DNA from: Gammaproteobacteria bacterium | GTDB taxonomy: Bacteria; Pseudomonadota; Gammaproteobacteria; Chromatiales; Chromatiaceae | DNA length: 64,000 bases | Reading direction: 5' to 3' | Assembly (NCBI GenBank): GCA_020445335.1 | Contig: JAGRGU010000005.1 | Span: 1-64,000 of the forward strand | Part shown: positions 10,975-45,210 of the stretch, piece by piece | Position numbering within the stretch: the stretch's first letter is position 1 | How the letters are laid out: every line of letters begins with the position of its first letter | Notes under the pieces: model-generated | Database searches by the model: none | What the model saw: the letters and a program-made list of their open reading frames with translations, nothing else | What the model was told of the DNA's origin: nothing | Position numbers and translations under genes: made by a program

Positions 10975-11979
10975 CTATTGCTCAAACAACCCGACGGTGA
11001 AATCGAACAGCTGCTGTGCATCGAACTCTTTGCTGTAACTCTCGATCCACTCTTTTCGCACCGACTCGGCAAGCGCTTTCAACTCCGCGGTCTGCTCCGG
11101 GGTAAAGGTGACCAGGGTCAGCCCCTCCTCCGCGATTGCCGCTTGATACCTGGCTGTGGTGTTCTCTTCGTAGTTTTTGACGTAGAAGGCCAGCGCTTCG
11201 TCAACCGATCCCAGCAGCGCCTCTCTGTGCGCCGGTGCGAGCGCCTGCAGCGCATCGGTATTGACCACCACAGGGCAGTTGGCGCTGCCAAGATTCAGAT
11301 TTGTGGTCGCCCACTTCCCAACCTTGTAGGAGTTGGTCGCCAGGTGCGCGTGGGGAGCAAAGGAAGCGGCGTCGATCACCCCGGAGTCCATCGACTGGCG
11401 CACCTCCGAGAAGGGCACCCCGGTTTTGACCGCGCCCAACTTGCCGAGCACCCCCATGATCCCTCCCGGGCCGCGCACCCGCAGACCCTGGAAATCCGAC
11501 AGCTTGGTGATGGGGTCGCTTTTACTGACGATGTTGTACTGCGGCATGGGCGTCGGCATCAGCAGGGTTGCGTTCCAGCGGGCAAGATCATTGATAACGA
11601 TCGGGTGCTTGAACACTTCGGTATAGATCTCGGCGATATGGCCGAGCGAGACGTCGCGCGAAAACGGCAGCTCGGTCACGGTGATCGTCGGATTCTTGGC
11701 CGTGTGGTAGAAGGAGCAGAACTGCGCCATTTCGAAGGCACCGATCGAGATGCCGTCGAGATTTTCGCGCGCTTTCGACAGACCGCCGTAGGAGATATTG
11801 AGCTTGAAATCCCCATTGGTCTTGGCCGCTACAAGCTCGGCCAGTTTCTCCACATTCTCCGTGAAAGCGCGCCGTTTGCCCCAGAGTGATACGTTCCATT
11901 CAGTGGCAGCGTAGATATCACCGGCGGTGAAGCTCGCAAGCAACAACGCCGACATGGCCATTTTTGTGGCTCTCTTCAT
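10975..11979 (-). CDS. dctP: TRAP transporter periplasmic substrate-binding protein DctP
   Basis: 334 residues with a Sec signal peptide (MKRATKMAMSALLLASFTAG then DIYAA). DctP family features include the central region LRVRGPGGIMGVLGKLGAVK followed by PFSEVRQSMDSGVIDAA; the first conserved arginine of that region normally binds the ligand carboxylate. GAGGAGGAACAG precedes the ATG. First gene of the TRAP operon, with its promoter expected in 11980-12174, where I see no gene. Ligand unknown; the downstream TauE-like exporter makes a sulfonate possible. Confidence 0.92.
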   Translation of the reverse strand: MKRATKMAMSALLLASFTAGDIYAATEWNVSLWGKRRAFTENVEKLAELVAAKTNGDFKLNISYGGLSKARENLDGISIGAFEMAQFCSFYHTAKNPTITVTELPFSRDVSLGHIAEIYTEVFKHPIVINDLARWNATLLMPTPMPQYNIVSKSDPITKLSDFQGLRVRGPGGIMGVLGKLGAVKTGVPFSEVRQSMDSGVIDAASFAPHAHLATNSYKVGKWATTNLNLGSANCPVVVNTDALQALAPAHREALLGSVDEALAFYVKNYEENTTARYQAAIAEEGLTLVTFTPEQTAELKALAESVRKEWIESYSKEFDAQQLFDFTVGLFEQ

Positions 11980-12174
11980 CTGTTCCTCCTCGGGATAGGG
12001 TATACGCTTTTTTATTTTGAAATGATGCTGGATGTGACTCGTTCCCCCGTCAACGGGCGGGGTCGAGTCGCGGCACTGAAACTAAACTTTAGACGAAAAA
12101 CTGCAACATAGACACCGGCATCGGAGGTTGAGACCGAATCAGCCGGTTTTACTTTTGGAGTATGCCCTGAGCGC

Positions 12175-12684
12175 TCATTCACAACTAACGCTGCAGCTGT
12201 CGGCGTTGCCGTCCGTGCATGGCTTGCGGACGGTGGCCAAAGAGGATTTGACACCGGGAATCCGGCAGACAGTTCGGGTACGTAGTGTGAAGACGGTCCC
12301 GCCCTGGTAGCTGCAGGTAACTTTATAGAGACCGCTCTGCTGCGAAACGGCAACCCCTTTCACCGCCGTTGCTCTGATCTCCTCAGCTGTCAGCGCACAA
12401 CTGGCGTAACTCATGAATTCGCCATCGGCGGACTCCCAGAGTGCATTGAACTTCTGTCGCTTGAACTCCGCGTAACTGTCGCACTTTTCCGGATGTGCAG
12501 TGTTGGGATCGCGTTCGAAACCGCAGGTCGCCTTAAACATGCGCTGGACTTCGGCCTCGGTGGGGCAGTCGGCAATCTGCCTGGCCTGTGAGATATCCGG
12601 ACAGGTCAGAGTTTTCGCCAACGACTGGGCTGATGCCAGAAGAAGGAGAAGGATAACCGGTGGGACGGCAGTGACAGCTCTCAT
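12175..12684 (-). CDS. Secreted cysteine-rich protein of unknown function
   Basis: 169 residues from ATG 12684. A Sec signal peptide (VPPVILLLLLASAQSLAK) is followed by a mature part with about ten cysteines (TCPD, ADCPTE, ATCGFE, EKCDSY, ASCALT, VTCSYQ, TVCRIP, KPCTDG, DSCSVSCE), so a disulfide-rich periplasmic or secreted protein is likely. I do not recognise the family; the first part (CPDISQARQIADCPTEAEVQ) recalls small DUF3757-like exported proteins, weakly. The ribosome site GGAG lies inside a 15-bp hairpin, described separately, which should hold translation down unless opened. Confidence 0.7.
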   Translation of the reverse strand: MRAVTAVPPVILLLLLASAQSLAKTLTCPDISQARQIADCPTEAEVQRMFKATCGFERDPNTAHPEKCDSYAEFKRQKFNALWESADGEFMSYASCALTAEEIRATAVKGVAVSQQSGLYKVTCSYQGGTVFTLRTRTVCRIPGVKSSLATVRKPCTDGNADSCSVSCE

Positions 12685-12688
12685 GGAT

Positions 12689-12722
12689 ATGCTCCGCAAC
12701 GATTGTGATCGTTGCGGAGCAT
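12689..12722 (-). promoter_or_regulatory. Perfect hairpin sequestering the ribosome site, with a possible leader peptide
   Basis: ATGCTCCGCAACGAT (12689-12703) and ATCGTTGCGGAGCAT (12708-12722) form a perfect 15-bp inverted repeat with a four-base loop. In the minus-strand transcript the 3' arm holds GGAG, eight bases before the ATG at 12684. An ATG at the 5' edge of the hairpin opens a 13-codon frame (MLRNDHNRCGAYP) whose TGA overlaps that ATG. Translation of this leader, heat or a protein could open the site. A DNA operator is the main alternative. Confidence 0.6.
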
Positions 12723-12831
12723 AAAAACACTCACTGTCGAATTCAACCCCACGGTCAATACGCTGGGGTGATCACCTCAGGGCGTCCAGGCGAGCGAAAC
12801 GGCAGCTTCCCTTTCAGGGCGCCCCGTCCCG

Positions 12832-14700
12832 TCAGGCCTTGGCGCGCTCCGGGAGTTCGTCTACTGCTTCGTTCGACTCCTCGTCGTCCTCGCCGTCCTG
12901 AGATTCCGCAGCCGCCTCAAGCTCATCCTGATCCAGCTGCAGTTCGCGCGCCAGTTCACGCGCTTCGGCGTCGCCGCTGGCGAAGAGCACCTCGCCCATC
13001 TGTACCAGATTCTTGGCTACATCATATGCGTATGCAGTATCGTTCATAAGCGATGTCGCCATCTGCGCGGTGATGCGGTTTTCCCGGATCATCACCTCGA
13101 GAATTCCGTTGGCGGTGCTGTCGTTCTCCTCCATTTCGACCCTGATAGCGTCGAGTGAAAGCACCGCGGTGGTGTCGCCGCTTTCGCTTTCGGTTCTCGC
13201 CTCGCCGATACGTCGCAATACTTGACCCAGATGGAGGCGAATACTGTTGTACTCCTCGCGGATATCGTCATTGTCGGAGACGATATATTGCGACATATTC
13301 TTGTGCATGTGTTTGGTGTCTTTGATCGCCTCGACGATGTCACGACCCGCGGCCCGCAGCCGGAACAGTTCATCCGACTGCTGCGGCGTCATGCCGACCT
13401 GTACGCGGCTGATGAAATTCACGATCTCGCTGTAGAGCCCTTTGACGTTACTGTTGTACTCGCCGTCGATGTCGACCGGCATCTGTTTGCTCTTCTTCTG
13501 CACCACCTCTTCCAGACTCTTCTCCGAAAGGATGTCGTGGCGATGCAGGTTTAGGCCGTGGGCGATGATCGCGAACGCGTTGTCATAAAGGCGTAGTGTC
13601 TCTTTACGTACCGCTTCGATGGCAGTATCGGGAAGCTCCATGACCGCTTCGTTGATGTAGATCGGTTTTGCCATCTCCGGCACCCTCTCCGGCATGATGC
13701 GTAGCAGCAGATTCACCAATTGGTTGGTGAAAGGCATCATCACCAGGATGCCGATGGTGTTGAAGAGGGTATGGAATACCGCCAGCTTCAGCGTCCAGTC
13801 ATCGGCTGCAATGCCGACCCAGGCGGATACACTGTCCACCGCCGCGATCAGCTGATTGATAAGCGCAATGGCAATGACAGCGGTGACTACGTTGAAGATC
13901 AGGTGCGCGCCAGCCAGGCGTTTGCCCTGCACGTTTGAACTCATCGAGCCGAGAATGGCGGTGATGGTGGTGCCGATATTGGCACCGATTGCGAGACCCA
14001 ACCCATTCTCGTAGGTGATCTGTCCCGCCGCCAGCGCGGTGATGATGATAACCAGGGTCGCGTGGCTCGACTGCATGATGACCGTGGCTGCGACACCCAG
14101 CGCTGTGAAGATCAGCACGCCGGCGTAGCCTTCGACGGCGAAGGCGGTCAGGTCGATGGTGTCGCGAAAGGTTTCGAAACCCTCCTTCATGTGGTGGATA
14201 CCGAGGAACAGAAAGCCAAGTCCTGCCAGGATATAGCCGATGCCGTTCAGGCTTTTGGATTTCTGAAACACCAGGATGATGCCGAAAACCAGCATCGGCA
14301 TCGCATAGGCGGAAATCTTCACCTTCATACCGAACCCGGCGATCAGCCAGGCGCCGGTCGTGGTTCCCAGGTTGGCACCGAAGATGATACCTATGCCCGC
14401 GGCCAGCGTGATCAAGCCGGCGCCGAGGAAGGAGATGGTAATCACCGAAACCAGCGAACTGGACTGCATCAGTGTGGTGGAGACGACGCCGAAGCTCAGG
14501 CTCTTCCAGAGCTTGTCGGTGGTTTTTCTAAGCAGGCGCTCCAGGAGGCCGCCGGTGAAGGCCTTGAACCCCTCCTCCAGCGACAGCATGCCGAAGAGAA
14601 AAATCGCCACGCCGGCTGAGATCTCCTTGAAATCCGGACTGATCCAGAATCCATAGGCCAGTACTATCAGGATTGTCGGCAGAAATATCTTCTTGATCAT
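12832..14700 (-). CDS. Na/phosphate cotransporter family protein with PhoU-like tail
   Basis: 622 residues. Two inverted copies of the NptA/YjbB transport unit carry the QSS signatures TTLMQSSSLVSV and TVIMQSSHATLV, each with a GANIGTT-like motif (GANLGTTTG, GANIGTTIT). About ten membrane segments end near residue 350; the remainder is charged and helical like PhoU. The family moves phosphate with sodium; in bacteria it often works as a low-affinity exporter or homeostatic valve. Acidic C-terminus (DGEDDEESNEAVDELPE). Substrate direction is not visible. Confidence 0.9.
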   Translation of the reverse strand: MIKKIFLPTILIVLAYGFWISPDFKEISAGVAIFLFGMLSLEEGFKAFTGGLLERLLRKTTDKLWKSLSFGVVSTTLMQSSSLVSVITISFLGAGLITLAAGIGIIFGANLGTTTGAWLIAGFGMKVKISAYAMPMLVFGIILVFQKSKSLNGIGYILAGLGFLFLGIHHMKEGFETFRDTIDLTAFAVEGYAGVLIFTALGVAATVIMQSSHATLVIIITALAAGQITYENGLGLAIGANIGTTITAILGSMSSNVQGKRLAGAHLIFNVVTAVIAIALINQLIAAVDSVSAWVGIAADDWTLKLAVFHTLFNTIGILVMMPFTNQLVNLLLRIMPERVPEMAKPIYINEAVMELPDTAIEAVRKETLRLYDNAFAIIAHGLNLHRHDILSEKSLEEVVQKKSKQMPVDIDGEYNSNVKGLYSEIVNFISRVQVGMTPQQSDELFRLRAAGRDIVEAIKDTKHMHKNMSQYIVSDNDDIREEYNSIRLHLGQVLRRIGEARTESESGDTTAVLSLDAIRVEMEENDSTANGILEVMIRENRITAQMATSLMNDTAYAYDVAKNLVQMGEVLFASGDAEARELARELQLDQDELEAAAESQDGEDDEESNEAVDELPERAKA

Positions 14701-14907: not shown

Positions 14908-15135
14908 TCAGTTCTGCGAGAGCTGACGCAGCCCCTCTTTGACCGCTTTGAGATCCTTCTTCAATTTCTTGCGCCGACGCTTGTCCGACGCTTTCTTCAA
15001 CGCACTTCTCAGAGCCGAGCGACGCGTTTCGAACTGATCGACGATGCCCGCCCTCTGCTTGCGACGTTTATGCTGGCGGCTAGCTGCCTGATCCAGTAAA
15101 AGATTTAGTTCTGAAATCACTTCATTTGTCTTCAT
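14908..15135 (-). CDS. Small basic coiled-coil protein, unknown function
   Basis: 75 residues from ATG 15135, selected because GGGGGAGAG lies about eight bases upstream. After a short start (MKTNEVISELNLLLDQAASR) the protein is very Lys/Arg-rich (KRRKQRAG, SDKRRRKKLKKDLKA) and should be one or two long helices. It could bind nucleic acid, but there is no recognisable domain. Single gene flanked by spacers; 15136-15411 holds no other gene, only AT-rich sequence. Confidence 0.6.
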   Translation of the reverse strand: MKTNEVISELNLLLDQAASRQHKRRKQRAGIVDQFETRRSALRSALKKASDKRRRKKLKKDLKAVKEGLRQLSQN

Positions 15136-15367
15136 CGTGTGAGCTCTCCCCCTCGATTCGCAACTCATCCATCCAAAAGAATCCAGCAATATTTGGACCA
15201 ATTCCAATCCGTAACGTAATTTCAAGTAATACAGAAGGATGGTGAAAAATCACGAGCCGCGGCTCCCCTTTATGGGTGTAATAAAATGGAACTCACCCCC
15301 GATTAGAATCGATATAAATCATCTATTGCCATTAATAATCAGTATTATAGTTAGTCTGTAATGCTAC

Positions 15368-15411: not shown

Positions 15412-16827
15412 TCAGCATTTGCCCGCTTTCTTCAGGTTGGCAAGCCGCCGATTCAGTGCCGGGCGGGAGATACCCAGCAGTGTTGCCGCGGTGCCCTGGT
15501 TGCCACCTGCCCGTCGCAGTGCCTCATCGATATGCAGCTGTTCCGCCTCTTTCAGAGTGGGGAAATGCCCTTCGTTTACCACCGCCTTTTTTGCCTTCGC
15601 GAGCGGCAAAGATTTGTTGCTGGCCTTTATAAGGCGTCGGAAGCTCTTCACCGACAGCACCCTTCCCGTCGGATGGCTCGCCATCACATCGAACAGCATC
15701 GCTCTCAGTTCACGTACATTGCCAGGGAAGTGGTAATTCTCCAGCAGGGTCAGCACCTCCCCCGAGATCTCCGGCGCTTTGCGTTGCAGCGCAGTCGCGG
15801 CCTCTTCGACGAAATGGGCCAGCAACAGCGGTATGTCGCCGCTGCGCCGTCTCAACGGCGGAATCTCCACCTGGTGCACGGAGAGCCTGAAATAGAGATC
15901 CGAGCGAAACTTCTCTTTGGTCATCTGACCCTGGAGGTCGCGATTGGTGGCGCAGACCACCCGCACGTCGCTCAGTTTCGCCACATCCGAGCCCAACGGG
16001 TAGTACTCCTGCTCCTGTAGCAGGCGCAGCAGTTTTACCTGTGACGCGGATTTCAGATCACCGATCTCATCGAGGAACAGCGTACCCCCTTGCGCCTGCG
16101 CCACCAGCCCCTCACGATTTGAGTCGGCGCCTGAGAAAGCGCCTTTGCGGTGGCCGAACAGAGTGTCGGAAAAGAGCGCATCATCGAGCCCGGCGACGTT
16201 GACCGTGACGAAAGGGCCGCTCCTGTTGCTCAACTGATGTACGGCATGGGCCAGTAACTCCTTCCCCGTTCCCGTCTCGCCGGAAATCAGCACCGGCTCG
16301 CCCGAATCCGATATCGCCTCGATATACTGGAAAAGAGTGCGCATTTTCCGGCTGGCGGTGATGATCGGAGTGAAAGCCTCGTCGTGCTCCAGGTGATCGG
16401 TGATAAGGTAACGCTTCAGCGCGCCGACCTGCTGGCGCAGCGCACGCAACTCCAGCGCACGCTGAACGCTGGAGACAAACCTACTCTCCTCGACCGGCTT
16501 GACCAGATAGTCGAACGCCCCCTCCTTCATGCAGTGCACCGCCGACTCAACCTCCTGCGACGCGGTCATGACGATCACCGGCAGTTCGGGGTACTCCTGC
16601 ACGATCTGCGGCAGCAGTTTGGTGCCCGGGTGATACGGCATGAAGAGGTCGAGCACCACCACACCCGCCTCCTGCGTTTCGAGCAGCGGCAGCAGTTCGC
16701 GACTGTCATTGATCGTCTGCACATTTCTGATTCCGGCGCTGGCGAGAATCATGCGCGAGCTGAGCAGAACGGTCTGTTCGTCGTCGACCAGAATGACCGG
16801 AAGCGATGTCGATTTTTGCGGTGTCAT
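15412..16827 (-). CDS. Sigma-54-dependent response regulator (NtrC type)
   Basis: 471 residues: receiver domain (about 10-120, phosphoacceptor D60 in VVVLDLFMP), AAA+ domain with Walker A GETGTGKE (183-190), sigma-54 contact loop GAFSGA (229-234, a Ser for the usual Thr), Walker B FLDEIGD, arginine-finger region, and a C-terminal Fis-type HTH (LRRAGGNQGTAATLLGISRP). Activates RNA polymerase-sigma54 promoters after phosphorylation. Starts one base after the upstream sensor kinase stop, so the two form a pair. Target genes unknown. Confidence 0.94.
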   Translation of the reverse strand: MTPQKSTSLPVILVDDEQTVLLSSRMILASAGIRNVQTINDSRELLPLLETQEAGVVVLDLFMPYHPGTKLLPQIVQEYPELPVIVMTASQEVESAVHCMKEGAFDYLVKPVEESRFVSSVQRALELRALRQQVGALKRYLITDHLEHDEAFTPIITASRKMRTLFQYIEAISDSGEPVLISGETGTGKELLAHAVHQLSNRSGPFVTVNVAGLDDALFSDTLFGHRKGAFSGADSNREGLVAQAQGGTLFLDEIGDLKSASQVKLLRLLQEQEYYPLGSDVAKLSDVRVVCATNRDLQGQMTKEKFRSDLYFRLSVHQVEIPPLRRRSGDIPLLLAHFVEEAATALQRKAPEISGEVLTLLENYHFPGNVRELRAMLFDVMASHPTGRVLSVKSFRRLIKASNKSLPLAKAKKAVVNEGHFPTLKEAEQLHIDEALRRAGGNQGTAATLLGISRPALNRRLANLKKAGKC

Positions 16828-44116: not shown

Positions 44117-45210
44117 GACTTTTTCTCCAAGTCATCGACGGTGACAGTGCCATGATTCTTTTTCGCTTTCGCCTTGGCCCTGCTGTTCAGTCCGGCTGCT
44201 GCCGCGCCCACCGCCAGGCCGGCGGCTGCTGCGTAACTCACCGAACGTGAAACCTCGCCCACCGGGATGGAGAGCGCATTGTAGAAGCCTCCGGCGTCCC
44301 AGAAATTGGGCTCGGAGCAGCCGAGACAGCCATGCCCGGATTCCACCGGCCAACTGGTACCCTCGTTCCACTTGGCGGTCGCACAGGCGTTGTAGGTCAT
44401 CGGCCCCTTGCAGCCCAGTTTGTAGAGGCACCAGCCTTTCCTTGCTCCCTCGTCATCGAATGTATCGGCGAACAGCCCCTTGTCGTAGAACGGACGGCGA
44501 TAGCAGCGATCGTGGATACTGGTGCCGTAGAAGTTCATCGGTCGGCCGTACTGATCCAACTGTGGAAGCGTGCCGAATGTGAGGTAGTGCGCCAGCACTC
44601 CGGTGATCACCATCGGAATAGGCGGACAACCGGAGACGTTGATCACCGGTTTGTCGTGCACGATATCGCGTACCGCGACGGCGCCTGTCGGATTGGGATA
44701 GGCCTTCGGCAGACCGCCGAACGCGGCACAGGTGCCGACCGCGATCACCGCCGCGGCTCCGGCGACTGTCTCCTCCAGCGTTTGCAGGTTGCTGACGCCC
44801 GCGGTAGTCGAGTAACCGGGATTGCCGAGCGGAATCGAGCCGTCGACGACCACCAGATAGTTGCCATGGTTGGCGTGCATCGCCTCTTCGCGTGCCTTCT
44901 CGGCCGCGTGACCCGATGCCACCTGTAACGTATGGTGATAATCGAGCGAGATGTGATCGAATATGAGACTCTCCAGCGTCGGCGAGTGGCTGCGCGTCAG
45001 CGACTCGGTACAGCCGGTGCACTCCTGGAAGGAGAGCCAGATCACCGAGGGCCGGCTGGCCTTGTCCAACGCCGCCGCAACGGCCGGAACCATCGAAGGG
45101 GGCAGCGCCATCATCGACGCGGTTGCGGTACAGAATTTGAGAAACCCGCGCCGCGACACGCCGTGTCGTCTGAGGGTCTCGCCAAGGGTTTTTGTTCTAG
45201 GGTCTGCCAT
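44113..45210 (-). CDS. hynS: [NiFe] hydrogenase small subunit, Tat-exported
   Basis: 365 residues from ATG 45210 (CGGAGGC just upstream). Twin-arginine signal SRRGFLKFC near residue 19, then cluster ligands ECTGCTESL (proximal), GTCAAFGG, SGCPPIP, and the distal/medial cysteines in DRCYRRPFYDKG, GWCLYKLGCKGP and CLGCSEPNFWD. A C-terminal hydrophobic helix (YAAAAGLAVGAAAAGL) anchors the dimer to the membrane. Electron-transfer subunit of the uptake hydrogenase. Confidence 0.94.
   Translation of the reverse strand: MADPRTKTLGETLRRHGVSRRGFLKFCTATASMMALPPSMVPAVAAALDKASRPSVIWLSFQECTGCTESLTRSHSPTLESLIFDHISLDYHHTLQVASGHAAEKAREEAMHANHGNYLVVVDGSIPLGNPGYSTTAGVSNLQTLEETVAGAAAVIAVGTCAAFGGLPKAYPNPTGAVAVRDIVHDKPVINVSGCPPIPMVITGVLAHYLTFGTLPQLDQYGRPMNFYGTSIHDRCYRRPFYDKGLFADTFDDEGARKGWCLYKLGCKGPMTYNACATAKWNEGTSWPVESGHGCLGCSEPNFWDAGGFYNALSIPVGEVSRSVSYAAAAGLAVGAAAAGLNSRAKAKAKKNHGTVTVDDLEKKS

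Follow-up and report, generated by a model that had tools for sequence, protein, structure and literature searches.

The window, by which we mean the whole 64,000-nucleotide stretch of DNA analysed here, carries on its minus strand two co-directional genes with a hairpin in the gap between them. The downstream gene (12175-12684, with its ATG at 12684 and its stop at 12175) encodes a Cys-rich protein of 169 residues whose N terminus looks, by eye, like a signal peptide. Sequence searches of Pfam, NCBIfam and the PDB gave no match to this protein, and an AlphaFold2 model built from two sequences had a mean pLDDT of 57, a quality too low to search for similar folds with it. The upstream gene (12832-14700, minus strand) encodes a member of the Na/Pi cotransporter family (PF02690), and 147 nt separate the two. 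Given that the genes are co-directional, and that a scan of the minus strand between 11900 and 13000 found no terminator-like site, RNA reading through from the Na/Pi gene, its presumed source, into the Cys-rich gene is plausible but unproven.

Two minor features of the Na/Pi gene can be recorded here. The protein has 622 residues, compared with 604 in the same-genus genome G002, the C-terminal tail being about 18 residues longer. A small Lys/Arg-rich gene (14908-15225) lies upstream of it, and at six loci in relatives (L016, L018, L019, L020, L034 and L035) the Na/Pi gene is immediately followed by a small gene of similar appearance, judged by eye; the order of the two may have changed in the source lineage.

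Read as minus-strand RNA, the hairpin has its 5' arm at 12708-12723, a 4-nt loop at 12704-12707 and its 3' arm at 12688-12703, so that the inverted repeat is perfect over 16 bp. The sequence-only reading had rightly described a perfect hairpin at this place, but had counted 15 bp. It had also located the GGAG ribosome site of the exported Cys-rich protein in the 3' arm, and this is indeed where it lies, at 12695-12692 and 7 nt before the ATG. For perfect arms of at least 16 bp and a loop of 3-10 nt, the analytic expectation is about 0.0002 per 64 kb. The hairpin is the only perfect one in the window with arms of at least 13 bp and a loop of 3-12 nt, and the longest of 21 (arms of at least 10 bp, loop 3-10 nt) in a 461,106-base sample of the genome, made up of the window and 20 further stretches; the longest perfect arms in three Markov-1 controls were 13, 14 and 11. 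The predicted RNA fold of the 101-nt region has an energy of -41.4 kcal/mol (z = -6.5), and none of 200 shuffles was equally stable. An intrinsic terminator was rejected for want of a T run, the stem being followed by TCCATGAG on the minus strand and by AAAACACT on the plus strand.

Even when up to three mismatches are allowed, the 3.66-Mb source genome contains a single copy of the 32-base dyad, and one of 210 genomes of the family has it, namely the source genome itself. At this stringency a REP-like repeat, a multi-site operator and the end of a mobile element were rejected. The source genome is 89% complete in 157 contigs, and the assembly looks like a MAG. Perfect hairpins of such length are not unheard of in relatives, as one of them (G012) has a perfect 16-bp hairpin with a 6-nt loop (L034:1374-1411), about 90 nt upstream of an Na/Pi paralogue.

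The Cys-rich gene itself is found in 13 of the 210 family genomes, including the source genome, and is absent from both of the other genomes of the same genus (G001 and G002). The sequences upstream of the gene were compared in 14 rows, these being the window (L010) and 13 homologue loci, all named below. One of them, L012, is a further locus from Candidatus Thiodiazotropha sp. (ex Monitilora ramsayi); its upstream sequence is identical to that of L074, and the two probably represent the same organism. The homologues start close to where the window has its ATG, with ATG or, in L080 and L083, GTG. All 13 other rows have a GGAG 6 nt upstream of the start codon, and none of them has the hairpin or any other leader that hides the Shine-Dalgarno sequence. 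The next gene upstream is co-directional at all 11 of the homologue loci that were compared, again with no hairpin at any of them, and in L081 and L084 it is closer than in the window. Near the Cys-rich gene of L011, L012 and L078, from relatives in the Thiodiazotropha group, there is a gene that looks by eye like that of a phosphate-binding protein, whereas in the window the Cys-rich gene comes after one for a Na/Pi cotransporter. In G124 (L082 and L084; G124:C36) the Cys-rich homologue is split over two overlapping frames, and may be broken or may reflect a sequencing error.

A sigma-70-like promoter sequence, TTGAAT-17-TATGCT, overlaps the hairpin. The -35-like hexamer is at 12741-12746 and the -10-like hexamer at 12718-12723 (minus strand), the latter sharing its first base with the hairpin (12723), on the outer edge of the 5' arm, and supplying the first six bases of that arm. 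Scored with assumed hexamer frequencies, this is the best site in the 147-nt gap, at 10.8, with a runner-up at 5.8. The same score was attained in 42 of 2000 Markov resamples of the gap with the same dinucleotide make-up, and at a fraction of 0.00017 of positions in 204 kb of the genome, both strands counted. A stricter consensus scan, with a cut-off of 9 matches out of 12, listed no promoter here, the site matching at 8 of 12. Taken alone, the score is only suggestive of a promoter.

The decisive point for the putative promoter is the position that it shares with the homologues. The pattern TTGNNN-17-TANNNT, which was written after the rows had been inspected, so that the promoter model is post hoc, has the beginning of its -10 element at one and the same distance, 39 nt ahead of the start codon, in 10 of the 14 rows, from four genera (the window, L073, L012, L074, L075, L011, L078, L079, L080 and L083). 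Over the compared stretch L012 and L074 are identical, as are L011, L078 and L079, leaving seven distinct sequences. The pattern occurred 54 times in 928,000 sampled genome positions, or 5.8e-5 per position, a rate taken from a G+C-rich sample as a whole that A+T-richer gaps would exceed. The 39-nt site takes first rank of 124 in five of these rows and second rank in the remaining five; in L075, L011, L077, L078 and L079 a rival 83 nt from the start has the higher score. The pattern is missing at this place in L076, L077, L081 and L084. Of these, L077 has TTGATG-17-CATCCT, with the first base of the -10 changed, and L081 has the very hexamers of the window, TTGAAT-17-TATGCT, but at 52 nt from the start.

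With a -10 that ends at 12718, transcription would be expected to start at about 12711 (zone 12709-12714), inside the 5' arm. The sequence-only reading had named a transcription start downstream of the hairpin as the observation that would refute it, and a predicted start within the hairpin comes close to this.

The consequences for the ribosome site were computed as the energy needed to open the stretch from the Shine-Dalgarno sequence to the start codon, in RNAs with 5' ends at -150, -60, -39 and -27, for the window and the 13 other rows. In RNA that holds both arms the GGAG is buried, as had been claimed: opening costs 18.0 kcal/mol from -150 and 19.4 from -39 in the window, against 3.5-8.9 and 3.0-6.9 kcal/mol in the other rows. 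From -27 the window costs 4.5 kcal/mol and the others 2.5-6.5. When 26 possible 5' ends were folded for the window, those at 12718 or upstream gave 10-20 kcal/mol and those at 12715 or further in gave 4-5; since the switch between 12718 and 12715 is so sharp, the result does not depend on the exact start. It follows that the hairpin hardly affects the gene's own transcript, and acts mainly on RNA from upstream. According to these models, RNA from the predicted promoter should have an accessible ribosome site, like the predicted transcripts of the homologues, and read-through RNA from the Na/Pi gene should be untranslatable. It is a matter of speculation that the short stem left at the 5' end of the gene's own transcript protects the RNA from decay.

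It had been suggested that heat, a ligand or translation of a leader peptide opens the hidden ribosome site. The full pairing of the site in RNA with both arms speaks for such a switch, but the stem is far too stable for a thermometer. Opening costs 20.7 kcal/mol at 25 C, 17.7 at 37 C, 14.8 at 50 C and still 9.2 at 80 C, and an RNA thermometer was rejected because the helix over the ribosome site does not melt in the physiological range. The ligand proposal fared no better, as an Rfam search of 11900-13000 returned no match up to E=1. The leader peptide would be encoded by a 13-codon frame, MLRNDHNRCGAYP (12681-12722, minus strand), that overlaps the start of the gene. The frame does exist, running from an ATG at 12722 to a TGA over the gene's own ATG, but nothing marks it as special, and we judge it incidental. 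It is unremarkable, since its ATG simply pairs with a CAT in the spacer of the ribosome site as that triplet's reverse complement, and since 36% of the 931 minus-strand ATGs scored in the window attain its Shine-Dalgarno score of -3.1. With so weak a ribosome site, no ATG at this place in any of the 13 other rows, and a start codon that lies upstream of the predicted transcript, a leader-peptide attenuator was rejected. We therefore regard an opened switch of any of these kinds as very improbable.

The dyad might instead act as DNA. A dimeric regulator bound to the 36-bp dyad, which spans about -12 to +24 of the predicted promoter and so covers the -10 and the start site, would repress transcription, and a dyad operator had been offered as the other explanation of the repeat. 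Looser versions of the sequence are indeed in excess in the genome: the inner core GCAACGATNNNNATCGTTGC has 24 sites with up to three mismatches, the hairpin included, compared with two for the reversed control, and a half-dyad pattern has 51 and 43, compared with 11 and 19 in reversed controls. However, such an excess could stem from codon usage, and the best of the other inner-core sites carry two mismatches. The whole 32-base dyad has no second copy within three mismatches, either in the source genome or in the other 209 family genomes, and it is present in no homologue. Neither direct neighbour of the hairpin encodes a regulator; a sigma-54 response regulator gene lies at 15412-16827. We consider the operator proposal quite improbable.

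We propose instead that the hairpin makes read-through RNA untranslatable while sparing the gene's own transcript, in the manner of gene e (lysozyme) of phage T4, and we put the probability of this reading at roughly 0.55. A polymerase arriving from the Na/Pi gene would copy both arms; in the resulting long RNA the 16-bp stem would bury the GGAG, and the exported-protein gene would not be translated. A polymerase starting from TTGAAT-17-TATGCT would begin near 12711, within the 5' arm, and its transcript, without the outer stem segment opposite the GGAG, would be translated normally. The reading is built on the hairpin, on a promoter-like sequence at a position common to the homologues and on the difference in energy between long and short RNA, all three of which come directly from computation. 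From these we infer the exact start site, the occurrence of read-through, and the purpose of the hairpin, namely to keep read-through silent.

In T4 gene e, according to PMC3014915, an RNA structure over the ribosome site silences the longer early transcripts 100-fold, and late promoters just upstream of the ribosome site give transcripts that lack the 5' strand and are well translated. The likeness extends to the window, where the 3' arm also covers the ribosome site, and where the predicted promoter at the 5' arm would give RNA without the inhibitory stem, the cost of opening falling from 18-19 to 4.5 kcal/mol. It is the closest known arrangement: the anatomical features are matched by prediction, and the window element may work by the same mechanism. 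The two differ in that T4 uses late promoters to time a phage gene, whereas in the window a predicted sigma-70-like promoter precedes a chromosomal gene whose product is exported.

Related leaders are found in mobile DNA. In Aeh1, the leader of the homing-endonuclease gene mobE reportedly hides its ribosome site by structure in RNA initiated upstream. The T4 I-TevI leader does the same, again according to PMC3014915. Both differ from the window in being mobile genes of phages, and I-TevI in its use of a T4 late promoter. The leader structure of the IS10/Tn10 transposase protects against outside promoters. In the IS200 tnpA leader an inverted repeat hides the ribosome site, as stated in PMC12594629. 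These structures belong to transposon ends, whereas no mobile element was identified at the window hairpin. A search confined to open-access full text brought up no title or abstract opening that clearly described a precedent outside phages and transposons, which is no proof of absence. If our reading is true, then a device of phage genes and transposase leaders also serves an ordinary chromosomal gene.

As to its origin, we infer that the hairpin arose by local replacement of sequence, for example through a template switch during replication, and not by insertion, because the length from the -10 to the start codon, 39 nt, equals that of most of the homologues. Presumably the reverse complement of one part of the leader took the place of the other part. 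A perfect stem can result from a single event of template switching during replication (PMC8794818); the examples described there were inferred from reconstructed histories of rRNA and microRNA, and the event here is one that we propose.

Such an origin also allows the hairpin to be a neutral by-product: one template-switch mutation would have concealed the ribosome site of read-through RNA without consequence, read-through being negligible or harmless. The possibility of making the stem in one step, the unchanged length of the leader and the lack of any SD-hiding leader in the 13 other rows all fit this view. The 11 hairpin-free homologue loci behind co-directional genes tell against the filter and for neutrality, since silencing of read-through is evidently not generally needed, and with one genome assembly known to carry the hairpin, selection for keeping it cannot be shown. 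On the other hand, the promoter, its spacing and the Shine-Dalgarno sequence have all been retained, and the gene's own transcript is predicted to be as accessible as those of the homologues, which is compatible with selection but no proof of it. On balance a neutral by-product seems to us rather unlikely, though it deserves to be weighed.

Under a different ancestry, the hairpin would be what remains of a transcription terminator that belonged to the Na/Pi gene; it would have become joined to the downstream gene's ribosome site and would now serve as a 3' end or a weak terminator. The pattern GCTCCGCN{3,20}GCGGAGC occurs once in the source genome, in the hairpin, and once in G002, but not in G001. 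The copy in G002 lies about 150 nt beyond the orthologous Na/Pi gene and, with its T8 run, has the form of a textbook terminator. A random 16-nt arm would share a 7-mer with the arm of that terminator with a probability of 0.0034; an alternative value of 0.09, computed for this match with the TATGCTCC start taken as fixed, was set aside as it presupposes part of the coincidence. None of the 36 pairs among nine terminator-like sites of the source genome shares a 7-mer. The rarity of the pattern is nevertheless weak evidence, as the reversed control has five sites in the source genome, none in G001 and one in G002. There is the missing T run on both strands, and the flanks between stop codon and hairpin align no better than shuffles, whose local scores equalled theirs in 792 and 713 of 1000 cases. 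A global alignment that included the hairpins had a score reached by 53 of 1000 shuffles. Window positions 12685-12900 have no match in G001 or G002. The G001 Na/Pi orthologue ends at a contig edge, which cuts off its 3' flank. Lastly, a promoter at the homologous distance from the ATG points to a segment that came with the downstream gene, in which case the shared core is a coincidence. In our judgement this positional match outweighs the match in GCTCCGC...GCGGAGC, which makes terminator ancestry a minor rival with a small chance of being right. The proposed function is identical whether the hairpin originated by a template switch or from a terminator.

Under the T4-like reading, the DNA of the promoter's own -10 would also contribute to the strand by which the ribosome site is concealed in RNA, and a one-step template switch, by making a perfect hairpin of the entire segment of promoter and leader at unchanged length, would have yielded a switch that senses where a transcript originated. 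This more specific idea is tentative, and we would call it possible and not yet likely. If the T4-like reading is right, the hairpin arose on a single branch, most of the homologues having kept the same promoter position and ribosome site, and the locus offers a clean before-and-after pair for studying the birth of an RNA hairpin. It would also give a simple rule with which all genomes could be scanned, a palindrome spanning the -10 to the Shine-Dalgarno sequence, and if similar events recur, palindromes of promoter and leader may be a cheap and general insulation from read-through translation.

It is worth adding that a second, near-perfect palindrome of 18 bp, CTGGGGTGATCACCTCAG, lies at 12763-12780, upstream of the predicted -35. 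Its centre falls some 60 bp ahead of the predicted start, a place that is often bound by class I activators. Its core, GGTGATCACC, occurs three times in the window, compared with an expected 0.06, the other two copies being at 44602 and 57324.
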